Shown here: positions 36,839 to 41,014 of the stretch, piece after piece
How positions within the stretch are numbered: position 1 is the stretch's first letter
Layout: every line of letters begins with the position of its first letter
NCBI GenBank assembly: GCA_013285505.1
Contig: CP053450.1
Location: 1,162,796-1,226,795, forward strand
Length of the DNA stretch: 64,000 nt
Direction: 5' to 3'
Origin: Planctomycetota bacterium
GTDB taxonomy: Bacteria; Planctomycetota; Phycisphaerae; Phycisphaerales; UBA1924
Position numbers and translations under genes: made by a program
The notes under the pieces: generated by a model
Database searches by the model: none
What the model was told of the DNA's origin: nothing
The model's input: only the letters and a program-made list of their open reading frames with translations

Positions 36839-37392
36839 ATGCTCGGGACGCTCTTCAAACCGTGGCGCGCACCCGGAGCTCGACGGGCTGAGCGACACCG
36901 AGTGCCGCGAGATGATCGAACGCCGCTGGCGGCGCGACCCGCCACCCCTCCGCACCATCGACGCGGCCGCCGCGGGCGTTGGTCTGGTCTGGATTCCCGC
37001 CCTCTTCTTCGCCGTCGTCCGGTTCACCCCGCTGACCAAAGACCCGCAGCTCGAGACCGACGCGGTGTACCTGGTCGTCGGCACGGTCTCGTTGATCACG
37101 GGCATCGCCCTCGGCGCCCGGCCTCCGCTGGCTCGCCAACGCCATCGTTGTCGGCCGCACACTCCGCCGCATCGTCGCCGGGGCCGTCTGCCCCAAGTGC
37201 AGACAACCCCTCCGCGGCCTGCCCATCATCGACGACGCCCACCGCCCCGACGACCGCTCCCGCATGCGCGTCCGCTGCCCCGAGTGCGGCAAGCTCGTCC
37301 GCCTCCTCAAATACGGCTACGGCCCAGAAGACCTCGCCCCGTGGGAGGAACGCGTGCTGCCGAAGGGGTTTGAGGTGAAGATCAAGCGGTAG
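36839..37392 (+). CDS. Two-helix membrane protein with C-terminal zinc ribbon, two frameshifts
   Basis: About 183 residues from ATG 36839 (MLGTLFKPWRAPE). Two membrane helices (GVGLVWIPALFFAVV and YLVVGTVSLITGIAL) are followed by VCPKCRQPLRGLPI and RCPECGKLVRLL, a CxxC...CxxC zinc ribbon. Shifts near 36872-36876 and 37118-37126 (GGCGCCCGG for GGCGCCGG) must be removed; the joined text is ALGAGLRWLANAIVVGRTL. The end is KGFEVKIKR, stop 37390-37392, directly abutting the opposite-strand stop of the next gene. Function unknown; such zinc-ribbon membrane proteins are common in planctomycetes. Confidence 0.65.
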
Positions 37393-38193
37393 CTATTGGA
37401 TGTCGCGGCCGGCGATGCCCCATTCTGTAGAGCCAAATGGCGATGGCCCCCATATTGGATAACGATTGAGATACGGGAGTGCCTCGCTGCCATGAATCTG
37501 CGCGACATGGCCGTCAAGGAACCACAGCGAGCCGGGCCGCTCAGAACTGTCGTGCCAGAGCCCTGCCGTCGGGCAGCCCTCACAGTGCGTCCCGCTCCAC
37601 CCGTGCCAGACTCGGTACTCCAGCAGTCCGACCTTGCGGTCGGGAAACACAGCTGCGCTGTGTCGTTGCACTTTGGCACCGAGCCGGGACTTCCAGACGC
37701 TCTCCGGCAATTCCGGGTCCCAGTATTTCACTTCCGTGAACGCGGGGGCGGTGAGGACGTAATCAGGATCGGATTCCCGGTCCGGTCCTTCCGGCCAGGG
37801 CTGGTAGTCCGGGCAGTTGAGAATCTCGCTGAAGGGTCCGAGCCCGGACCACTGCAGCCACGGGTCGCGAGGAAAGGTCGAGTACAACTGGAAGCTGTAG
37901 TGCGGCCACATGTCCCTGTTCTGCGTGATCTCCGGGCCGTCGCCGAGCGTAGAAGGAAATCTATCGTCATACTCAGCGGCGTAAGAAGCAACAAGGTTGC
38001 CCAACTCTCGAATCCGGGCCGTGCACGAAAGTTCTGTTGCCGTCAGCCGCACCCGGCCAAGAGAAGGAAGGAGGAGTGCGATCAGGATCATGATGACCCC
38101 AAGAGAAATGACGGTTTCAACTAGCGTGAAACCATTCCTAGAGTCTTTCTGCAGTGGGACTTGAGTGTGGATGGACGGCGAGTTGAGGGACAT
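37393..38193 (-). CDS. Pseudopilin-like protein (prepilin N-terminal motif)
   Basis: 266 residues from ATG 38191-38193 (MSLNSPSIHTQVPLQ). Prepilin leader NGFTLVETVISLGVIMILIA, cleaved between G and F, with glutamate five. The C-terminal SLWFLDGHVAQIHG has the FxDGHV motif of the planctomycete pseudopilin family, as in the 12982 gene, but the rest is divergent. GC is clearly lower (around the mid 50s by eye) than in most of the window and there is no frameshift. A longer start at 38265 lies within the divergent promoter region and is less likely. Function unknown. Confidence 0.85.
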   Translation of the reverse strand: MSLNSPSIHTQVPLQKDSRNGFTLVETVISLGVIMILIALLLPSLGRVRLTATELSCTARIRELGNLVASYAAEYDDRFPSTLGDGPEITQNRDMWPHYSFQLYSTFPRDPWLQWSGLGPFSEILNCPDYQPWPEGPDRESDPDYVLTAPAFTEVKYWDPELPESVWKSRLGAKVQRHSAAVFPDRKVGLLEYRVWHGWSGTHCEGCPTAGLWHDSSERPGSLWFLDGHVAQIHGSEALPYLNRYPIWGPSPFGSTEWGIAGRDIQ

Positions 38194-38208
38194 AGGGTGT
38201 GCATCCTG

Positions 38209-38238
38209 TTGACACCGGACGGGGGGGGGCGATATCTT
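38209..38238 (+). promoter_or_regulatory. Sigma-70-type promoter with a nine-G run in the spacer
   Basis: -35 TTGACA at 38209-38214 (perfect), -10 TATCTT at 38233-38238 with an 18-base spacer (or ATATCT at 38232-38237 with 17). The spacer contains G x9 at 38221-38229. The AAGGGAG ribosome site and ATG of the 38277 gene follow about 25-40 bases downstream. Change in G-run length would change promoter spacing. Confidence 0.7.
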
Positions 38239-38276
38239 GCGCCAGGCAGTGTACCTAAACACCAAGGGAGAACGTC

Positions 38277-38681
38277 ATGAGTACGGGCAAACCGGGATTG
38301 ATGTGCGAACTGGCTATGAAAACAACCGTTGTAGTCGGCGTAGCATTCGTCGCCGCCGCGGCGGCAATGCAGACCGGTCCGGGGGGCGGAGGGCCGGTGT
38401 GCATCAAGAAAATCGACATGCCGACCTCGCAGAGTCACATCCAGAGCGGATGCACATCTTGGACGGAGTGTGACGAGGCGTGGCAGTGCCCGACCGAGAA
38501 TCCCGGAGTGTTCACCACATGCGGCACGCCGAGCACGAGCATCAGGTATTGCCTTACCTGTGTCGGCGGCGAGTGGAACAGCACGACTCAGCGATGTGAA
38601 CTCGGTGTATCTGGCATCTGCGATAATCCCGTAGAAGACGATACGTATACCGTGTTTCTGTCGCCTGTGGTATGTCCGTGA
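38277..38681 (+). CDS. Small cysteine-rich exported protein, lower-GC island
   Basis: 134 residues from ATG 38277 with AAGGGAG 6 bases upstream. After MSTGKPGLMCELAMKT a hydrophobic signal helix (TTVVVGVAFVAAAAA, about 16-30) leads to a mature part with ten cysteines, for example SGCTSWTECDEAWQC, TTCGTPSTSIRYCLTC and CELGVSGICDN, which suggests disulfide bonding outside the cytoplasm. An internal ATG before KTTVVV may be the real signal start. No family recognised. It overlaps the next gene by 10 bases. Confidence 0.7.
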   Translation: MSTGKPGLMCELAMKTTVVVGVAFVAAAAAMQTGPGGGGPVCIKKIDMPTSQSHIQSGCTSWTECDEAWQCPTENPGVFTTCGTPSTSIRYCLTCVGGEWNSTTQRCELGVSGICDNPVEDDTYTVFLSPVVCP

Positions 38682-39679
38682 ATGCGCCAAGAGTCATCGC
38701 TGTCTGCCTCATACTGATCTCGGCAAGGGAGGCGATCGGCCAGTCGGCGGCCAGCGATGATGACGCGATCGGTGCCGTTTACGAGTGGGCGAGTGATTGG
38801 GCCGACGCAGAGGCGATGGCGGTGACGTGGAACGTGCTGCGCAACCGCTACGCGCAGGATGGATCTATCTTGGAGGCGGCGTGGCTTGTAGAAGATACCT
38901 TGTATCGCTGGCCGGATAGCTTTCGGCGCACCGTTGTGTTCGACGCTCGCAGAAACGAGGCGTCTGGGTTCAGTGTGAACCAGTACGACAAGGCCTTGGT
39001 GACGGAAGGGATTGCTCCGACGGGCGAGCACGTACGCCGGTTCACCGCGTTTGGTCAAGCTGACATAATGCACGGTCCCGAGATGACCCGTGCGATTCAG
39101 CGAGAGGCGGTGAGGGCACCCTTTGTGCTCGCGCGATGGGTCCTCGAATTCGGCTTGCTGGAGAGCGATTTCTCGGCTGTGTTTGTCCAAACGGATCTGA
39201 TTGAGGCGGTGTCTCCCTCAAGAGGGCTGGGCTTTGAGCTTGTACCGTTTGCAGACGGCTGGGTGTTGTCGCGCGTGACCAACCGCGGCGCAGACGGCAC
39301 TGAGTATGCCAGACTGGTTTTGTCGGACTTCTGCTGGCCGGAACACCTCCCCGCACCGCTCGGGCGCAGGGTCTCGGTATCTGTCCGAAAGCCGAACGGA
39401 GAGTACAGCCCGGCGAGCCCGATGGAACTCATCGCAGCCCGCATCGTGGACAGGCCGTCAGATGCGGCCCTCGTGATCGACACGAGTGCAGACAGCGTCA
39501 ACGACAGGCGGTCTGTTGCGCAACAGAGAGCAGCGGGCGTCGCAGAACCCCGGGAGCCACGTTCCGCGGCCACCCCCCCGGGTCGCACATCGCTCCGCGA
39601 CATGCTCCTCGGAGGCGGAATTGCCATGGTGCTCGCCGGGGTTGGATGGTGGTTGTGGCAACGCCGCCGCACCGTCTGA
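38672..39679 (+). CDS. Exported protein with C-terminal membrane anchor, lower-GC island
   Basis: 335 residues. Signal peptide VNAPRVIAVCLILISAREAIG, a large exported domain with no recognised motif, a disordered low-complexity linker (about 285-310: AEPREPRSAATPPGRTS), then a single C-terminal helix GGGIAMVLAGVGWWLW and the basic tail QRRRTV. The helix plus arginine tail is sorting-signal-like but lacks a PEP or LPXTG motif. The ATG at 38672 lies inside the end of the cysteine-rich gene, so the two are co-translated. Its stop abuts the stop of the DUF1501 gene with no spacer. Confidence 0.7.
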   Translation: MSVNAPRVIAVCLILISAREAIGQSAASDDDAIGAVYEWASDWADAEAMAVTWNVLRNRYAQDGSILEAAWLVEDTLYRWPDSFRRTVVFDARRNEASGFSVNQYDKALVTEGIAPTGEHVRRFTAFGQADIMHGPEMTRAIQREAVRAPFVLARWVLEFGLLESDFSAVFVQTDLIEAVSPSRGLGFELVPFADGWVLSRVTNRGADGTEYARLVLSDFCWPEHLPAPLGRRVSVSVRKPNGEYSPASPMELIAARIVDRPSDAALVIDTSADSVNDRRSVAQQRAAGVAEPREPRSAATPPGRTSLRDMLLGGGIAMVLAGVGWWLWQRRRTV

Positions 39680-41014
39680 TCACGCCAATATGGGCAGCTT
39701 CCGGTAGCTCTTTTCCAAGATCGTCTTGCTGTCCGCGCTCAGCCAGTCTTCCAGAATTCCCGCGTACACGCTCCGGAAGTCGATCTTGTACTTCAGGTCG
39801 CCGTCGTCAAGGTCAGAGAGCGACGGGTGGTCGCCGATCACGCCGGCCCTGACCATCGGCCCGACCAGGAACATCGGGGCCGCGGTGCCGTGGTCGGTGC
39901 CGCCAGAGGCGTTCTGCGAGACCCGCCGGCCGAACTCGCTGAACACCATGGTCATCACGCGGCTGTCGTTCTCGCTGGCCTTGAGGTCCTGATAGAACGC
40001 CCGCACCGCCGTCGCGTAGGTCTGCAGCAGCTGTGCGTGCCGCCCGTTCGACCCGCCCTGCCCCGCGTGGGTGTCAAACCCGCCGAGCGAGACGTAGTAG
40101 ACCCGCGTCTTGAGGCCGGCGCGGATCATGCTCGCGACCATCGCAAGGTCGCGCCCCAGCGCGTTGCCGGGATACTGCGCCTGCGGGGCCTGCCGCACGG
40201 CCTTGCGGATGAGGTCGCTCGAGACCTGCGCGTCCAGCGCGGTCCGCATCAGGAAGCCGGCCGCGGAGTCGGCATCGACGCCGTCGCGCACGCCGTGCAT
40301 GGTGAGAGATTCATACGGGGCCGAGAGCGATTCGTGGACATCCTCGCCCGTCCAGCGGAAGAGGTCGGGCGTCTCAAACGAGACCGGCTTGGCCTTGCGC
40401 CCCTGCATCGCCAGCGGGGCCTCGCGCCCGATCGAGATTGTCGGCTGGCCGCTGACCTCTCCGTCGGTCCCGCCGCCTGTCCCGTCGGCCGTGCCCGACT
40501 CGCCCTTGCCGTACCCGCAGCACTCGGCGTCCACATACCGCCCGATCCAGCCGTCGCCCGTGCCCGAGGTGTCGGCCGTCTGCCAGATGTCCATGCTCTT
40601 AAAGTGCGACCGGTTGGGGTTCGGGTAGCCCACGCCCTGGATGATCGAGAGCATCCCGTCGTCGTGCAGCTCCTTGAACGCCCGCAGCCCCGGGTGCAGT
40701 CCGACGTCGTCGTTGCGCCCCAGCCGCAGGGCGTTGTCCGCGGGGATGCCGATCCCCGGGCGACGCCGGTAGTAGTTGTCGTCGCGGAAGGGGATGACGT
40801 TGTTGAGCCCGTCGTTGCCGCCACCGAGCTGCAGCACGACCAGGATGCGGTCCTCATCCACCCCGGGGATCGAACTCATCCCCTCGGCCGCCGCTGGCAG
40901 GCCGAACGCCGAGCGTTGCAGAAACGCCGGCAGCGCGACCGAGGCCGAGGCGAGCGTCAGCCCAGTGCCGAGGAAGTGACGTCGGGTGTAGGCGTTGGCG
41001 TTGTGCAGGTCCAT
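39680..41014 (-). CDS. DUF1501 domain protein (Tat-exported)
   Basis: 444 residues. The N-terminus NAYTRRHFLGTGLTLASA is a twin-arginine signal. VLVVLQLGGGNDGLNNVIPF is the DUF1501 entry signature; YYVSLGGFDTHAGQGG and TMVFSEFGRRVSQNASGGTDHG are the conserved active-site-like segments, related to the alkaline-phosphatase/sulfatase fold. The DUF1501 partner of DUF1800 is almost always adjacent, as here. Function unknown; the pair is highly expanded in planctomycetes and some other bacteria. Intact frame. Confidence 0.93.
   Translation of the reverse strand: MDLHNANAYTRRHFLGTGLTLASASVALPAFLQRSAFGLPAAAEGMSSIPGVDEDRILVVLQLGGGNDGLNNVIPFRDDNYYRRRPGIGIPADNALRLGRNDDVGLHPGLRAFKELHDDGMLSIIQGVGYPNPNRSHFKSMDIWQTADTSGTGDGWIGRYVDAECCGYGKGESGTADGTGGGTDGEVSGQPTISIGREAPLAMQGRKAKPVSFETPDLFRWTGEDVHESLSAPYESLTMHGVRDGVDADSAAGFLMRTALDAQVSSDLIRKAVRQAPQAQYPGNALGRDLAMVASMIRAGLKTRVYYVSLGGFDTHAGQGGSNGRHAQLLQTYATAVRAFYQDLKASENDSRVMTMVFSEFGRRVSQNASGGTDHGTAAPMFLVGPMVRAGVIGDHPSLSDLDDGDLKYKIDFRSVYAGILEDWLSADSKTILEKSYRKLPILA

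Follow-up and report, generated by a model that had tools for sequence, protein, structure and literature searches.

Homopolymer runs in promoter spacers are candidate phase-variable switches of exported-protein cassettes in Planctomycetota

Promoter and genes at the locus

We analysed a 64,000-nucleotide stretch of the genome of a Planctomycetota bacterium, hereafter the window, and number positions from its first letter. A nine-G tract (G9) was identified within an 84-bp gap between divergent genes, bounded by the ATG of a minus-strand prepilin-like gene at 38193 and a plus-strand ATG at 38277. The features of the locus are as follows.

37393-38193, minus strand: P0003, divergent pseudopilin/prepilin-like protein (PIL family), with an N_methyl match (PF07963)
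38209-38214, plus strand: -35-like box TTGACA, from the sequence and a promoter scan, with an aligned box in orthologues G001 and G031
38221-38229, plus strand: G9 tract, the proposed slippage switch, within the 18-base spacer 38215-38232; G12 and G10 in the orthologous promoters
38233-38238, plus strand: -10-like box TATCTT, from the sequence and a promoter scan
38277-38681, plus strand: P0001, predicted exported Cys-rich protein of 134 amino acids with 11 Cys (CYS group), with a signal-peptide-like start; similar proteins lie behind the same kind of promoter
38672-39679, plus strand: P0002, protein of 335 amino acids with a signal peptide, LolA-like domain and C-terminal membrane helix (P2 family), predicted from sequence, profile and fold

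The spacer between the two boxes reads CCGGACGGGGGGGGGCGA. With 10/12 matches, the TTGACA/TATCTT pair is the best promoter-like site of positions 37300-39800, a 2.5-kb interval in which the promoter scan returned two sites against 0.5 expected. The optimal distance between -35 and -10 elements is 16-18 bases, and the 18-base spacer with its G9 lies near this optimum. The tract is the only G or C run of at least nine in the 64-kb window. Runs of G7 as such are rarer than expected (10 against a shuffle mean of 27), indicating that what is unusual is the placement of the G9 and not the run itself. An earlier sequence-only reading of this DNA had placed the boxes 18 bases apart with nine G between them, in a region of lower GC content in which the run stands out. 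The coordinates and letters proved correct, and GC content is indeed reduced (0.61 for 37393-39679 and 0.58-0.59 for 38000-38999, against 0.681 for the whole window); the run stands out as the sole one of its length, but the scarcity of G7 runs shifts the emphasis to its position.

That reading also assigned to the promoter an exported Cys-rich protein and an exported membrane-anchored protein, which agrees with the 11 Cys of P0001 and the predicted C-terminal anchor of P0002. Signal-peptide-like starts were read from sequence and model in both proteins, as was the C-terminus of P0002, a membrane helix followed by a basic tail; the products may lie at the cell surface. P0001 has no match in Pfam or NCBIfam, and all matches of P0002 to these collections are sub-threshold. 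The N-terminal methylation motif of P0003 scores 23.8 bits against PF07963 (cut-off 21.2). The structural model of P0002 (mean pLDDT 74.0, pTM 0.65) has LolA3 (9tp6) as its best Foldseek match (E 6e-8, TM 0.50 by target), and we predict a LolA-like fold of the LolA superfamily.

The locus in related genomes

When 101 genomes were searched for P0001 and P0002, four had a match to the former and three to the latter. Both in G001, from the same genus, and in G031, from another genus, a prepilin gene is divergent from Cys-rich and P2 genes, as in the window. The orthologous promoters are TTGATA-18-TACGCT with G12 in G001 and TTGACG-14-TATGCT with G10 in G031, so that tract length at this locus across the three species is 9/12/10 and the orthologous spacers are 18 and 14 bases long. 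In a further relative, G009, the contig breaks off roughly 20 nt short of the Cys-rich gene. A MauE-like gene lies downstream in G001, G031 and G009, and is absent beside the P0001 and P0002 genes of the window.

Run-containing promoters across the clade

The genome to which the window belongs (G000; 4.12 Mb) has 29 overlapping G9 matches that correspond to 23 runs, of which 17 are G9 and 6 are G10. Three of its promoters fit the form TTGA..G6+..TANNNT, each with exactly G9. The assembly is 86% complete, in one contig and with no G or C run above 10; its run lengths may have been shortened by long-read errors. All lengths reported here are taken from assemblies, which for the sampled relatives are mostly drafts.

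The pattern TTGAN{1,11}G8N{0,8}TANNNT was found in 86 of 200 relatives, comprising 64 of the 120 that belong to the window's own family (f1) and 22 of the 80 that do not. Within f1 there were 163 matches, compared with 11 for the reversed pattern (hand sums). With C8 in place of G8, matches occurred in 56 of the 200 genomes, and the f1 totals were 60 and 6 for the forward and reversed patterns (hand sums). After overlapping second matches were dropped, the matches listed yielded 140 G and 78 C sites; among these, spacers peak at 16-19 bases (85/140 G, 55/78 C) and the longest runs reach at least 17 (G) and at least 20 (C).

Slippery promoters of this appearance are not confined to the clade, since a poly-G12 scan of named genomes has Clostridia, Helicobacter, Alphaproteobacteria and other records among the matches listed. 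Records CANQQH01, CALXTZ01, CALXUB01 and CALWPD01, also among the matches listed, each carry several promoter-like sites with a poly-G12 spacer in a single Clostridia or Alphaproteobacteria MAG. These MAGs are possible further phasomes.

Genes downstream of run-containing promoters

We read 158 site-locus pairs, 154 of them unique and 136 of these in f1, where 33 of the unique sites are C sites. Downstream genes were tagged as CYS (short, Cys-rich, exported), ANC (325-406 amino acids, membrane-anchored), PIL (pseudopilin) or MAU (MauE). One of these cassette genes begins within 100 nt downstream at 97 of the 136 unique f1 sites, leaving 39 with no cassette gene at hand. By the same tagger, only 1 of 26 f1 promoters without a homopolymer run is tagged (Fisher p 5e-11), and this lone control, L213, has a broken G-run. 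Specifically, the tagged f1 sites comprise 42 CYS, a tag that is a rule of thumb and takes in some wrong-frame ORFs (L155), together with 27 ANC, 20 PIL and 6 MAU; P2 genes are present at 7 sites. The tagged share grows with run length, from 8/18 at length 8 to 45/53 at lengths 12-20. Outside f1, 1 of 18 sites is tagged.

Pfam identified MauE (PF07291) in 13 of 13 MAU members and N_methyl in 20 of 21 PIL members, and neither ANC nor CYS had a curated match. A PIL gene is nearby at all 30 ANC loci examined from the profile search described below, two of which are the same locus. The model of an ANC protein (mean pLDDT 86.7) matches the LolA superfamily, and both ANC and P0002 are thus predicted to adopt LolA-like folds. 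P0002 did not detectably belong to the ANC sequence family and was given a profile of its own, P2.

The distance from the -10 box to the start codon is 6-8 nt in 17/27 ANC and 11/20 PIL genes. This arrangement argues that the boxes are a real promoter and suggests that ANC and PIL transcripts are leaderless.

From protein families back to promoters

An ANC profile built from 27 proteins gave 46 matches in 61 genomes, of which 44 were examined once two second fragments had been dropped. A G or C run of at least 8 lies within 160 nt upstream of 25 of these 44 genes, including 14/14 of those used in the profile and 11/30 of the independent ones. The background frequency of such a run is 1.5% of 35,994 random windows, and none occurs in the neighbourhoods of the 25 control promoters other than L213. 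At least 5 of the 19 run-free independent ANC genes have another repeat at the gene start, and 14 have no evident repeat. The ANC gene of L255 has (CT)14.5 in place of the run, those of L257, L258 and L266 have ATGGGC repeats (by eye), and in L253 (2665-2700) an octamer repeated 4.5 times spans the ANC gene start and is a candidate translational switch.

Tracts were seen by eye in 11 of 18 prepilin upstream stretches, including three divergent ones, one of which is the window's own. Within one genus, these tracts are C8 in G000, C10 in G002, (GT)n in G003 and (TG)n in G002 and G001. A search for (TG)n-TANNNT found five sites in 4 of 200 genomes, three of them prepilin promoters of this genus, against three control matches. 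In L300 (about 1505-1630; G116), a very long (TG)n lies between TTGACG and TACAAT.

Of 118 family genomes, 11 have a P2 match, 8 of them strong and 3 weak. Seven of the eight strong P2 genes have an upstream run and the eighth is without upstream sequence. The weak relative in G101 is preceded by TTGACAGAT-G9-TACAGT, and no repeat was found within the upstream stretch examined for the other two. The P2 gene of L077 (G146) shows an apparent frame shift at its start relative to L078 (G118), the remainder being 92% identical.

Tract length at cassettes and alternative explanations

Orthologous cassette promoters differ in tract length. The pair G146/G118 has G9/G11; G158/G059 also has G9/G11, with promoter letters otherwise identical; G009/G146/G118 have runs of 10/12/12; and G001/G003 have C15/C13. 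Related PIL genes have G10 (L120) and C13 (L163) or C14 (L182), that is, a swap of G for C. At a further orthologous cassette promoter, that of L031 in G000 and L154 in G001, the run is G9 and G17, and the gene behind it (161-1552 in L031) encodes an exported repeat protein with W-P-P-x-H repeats and dockerin-like calcium motifs (by eye).

The G-rich spacer could instead be a static promoter element, acting through DNA shape or through contact with a sigma or accessory factor, with no switching. Some promoters behave in this manner. The tRNA-Thr/tuf promoter has G9 and a 16-base spacer in two genera, in G000 (L036, with the G9 at 1538-1546, contig C1 about 3902737, directly after TTGACC) and in G040 (L145), and the rpmF-plsX promoter has G8 and a 17-base spacer in all of three genomes (L080, L097, L148); tuf, rpmF and plsX were named by eye. 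Thus, the presence of a G run is not by itself evidence of phase variation. Also in keeping with a fixed element, the run abuts the -10 box in 62 of the 140 G sites among the matches listed. However, C-runs, (TG)n, (CT)n or an octamer take the place of the G-run in the same gene families, cassette runs differ in length between orthologues, and the association is restricted to a narrow set of genes. Run length and base are conserved between orthologues only at tuf and rpmF and vary at the cassettes, which points to two populations of G-run promoters. We first considered G-runs to be a promoter element that the clade recognises. On account of the C-runs, the other repeats and the variable cassette lengths, we dropped this as the main reading and kept it for tuf and rpmF; as an account of the window's tract, a static spacer is improbable. 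As judged from the sequences, the pattern of conservation and swaps is the trace left by transcriptional phase variation of the porA, fetA and hif type and not by a static G-rich element.

Alternatively, the tract may act on the minus-strand prepilin gene, or on both genes, more than on P0001. Five loci in relatives (L137, L138, L180, L181 and L191) lend this some appeal, as overlapping divergent promoters there share one run, as has been reported for Haemophilus influenzae hif, and at L137 and L138 the divergent genes encode a pseudopilin and a Cys-rich protein. The promoters of this set are symmetric around one G or C run, for example TTGACAGAATA..G13..TATTCTGTCAA. A shared divergent promoter was considered for the window, but no minus-strand TTGAC/TANNNT pair was found at the run, whereas the plus-strand boxes are good, and we regard this possibility as very unlikely. 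Equally hard to credit is neutral intergenic drift or an assembly product with chance box matches: the window has no excess of runs of at least seven G, some relatives' contigs end at or near such runs and draft-genome lengths are uncertain, but the reversed-pattern controls in f1 are more than tenfold lower for G, the gene association is strong, and the run-free control neighbourhoods lack runs of at least 8.

Proposed switch

We propose that the G9 is probably a simple-sequence contingency switch for P0001-P0002 and one of a clade-wide set of such switches. The sequence-only reading had already put the site forward as a candidate phase-variable promoter, and runs in orthologues, length changes, repeat swaps and the cassette association lend support to it. 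Strand slippage during replication would add or remove Gs at the tract, and a changed G count would alter both the distance between the -35 and -10 boxes (now 18 bases) and their relative rotation. Transcription of the P0001-P0002 operon would thereby become high or low in a heritable but reversible manner. Across the clade, each such switch would stand before a cassette for exported proteins (a Cys-rich protein, a membrane-anchored LolA-like protein, a MauE-like membrane protein and a pseudopilin), and cells of one clone would differ in the exported or pilus-like products that they make. We infer that the tract slips within populations, that expression responds and that the products are surface-exposed, with a possible benefit from diversity towards phage, grazers or partners. 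MauE may help the Cys-rich protein to fold, and the products may be exposed or pilus-linked.

More tentatively, and with the balance somewhat against it, this clade of uncultured planctomycetes may possess a combinatorial phasome. Each genome would then carry several repeat-switched cassettes, each combining a different Cys-rich protein with a membrane protein of LolA fold, a disulfide partner of the MauE type and a pseudopilin, with some tracts driving two divergent transcripts, and a clone would be a mosaic of pilus-linked or secreted disulfide-rich products.

Relation to known systems

A literature search, covering mostly titles and abstracts, did not turn up any report of repeat-driven phase variation from Planctomycetota. 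The mechanism itself is established; within the searchable literature, neither this clade, nor such breadth, nor the cassette seems to have been described. Most known cases of such variation come from host-associated pathogens, and if our proposal is correct environmental Planctomycetota would use it widely, with repeats marking exported products under diversifying pressure. Repeat-tagged promoters led to the apparently undescribed cassette of Cys-rich, LolA-like, MauE and pseudopilin genes, and offer a handle, based on sequence only, for finding more.

MauE serves disulfide formation in MauA during methylamine dehydrogenase maturation. The cassettes resemble this pair in that a MauE-family membrane protein is encoded with a Cys-rich exported protein, but the Cys-rich proteins here have no Pfam match and need not be MauA, and the window genes have no MauE beside them. 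Campylobacter and Helicobacter have poly-G/C contingency tracts at several genes per genome; unlike those loci, the tracts examined here lie in promoter spacers and not in reading frames.

The repeat of H. influenzae hif is TA. A study cited in PMC5084427 reports a repeat within a divergent promoter that combines those of the pilus genes, and the five planctomycete loci with overlapping divergent promoters on one run are similar in arrangement. Here, in contrast, the run is G or C, the genes are those of pseudopilins and Cys-rich proteins and not of chaperone-usher fimbriae, and in the window only the plus-strand promoter is clear.

The sequence-only reading had likened the site to the poly-G spacer promoter of Neisseria porA. 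The comparison is apt, and fetA, with its poly-C spacer, and hif, with its divergent promoters, are equally close. In porA and fetA, runs in the promoter spacer change transcription, as described in PMC5320596; as here, a homopolymer lies in a sigma-70-type spacer, tract length sets the spacing of the boxes and an envelope gene follows. The planctomycete promoters differ in their phylum, in the many cassettes per clade and in gene families that are without a Pfam match or encode pseudopilins and MauE. They differ also in having the run on the G or the C strand, dinucleotide repeats in the same place, and start codons that in many cases follow the -10 box by 6-8 nt.
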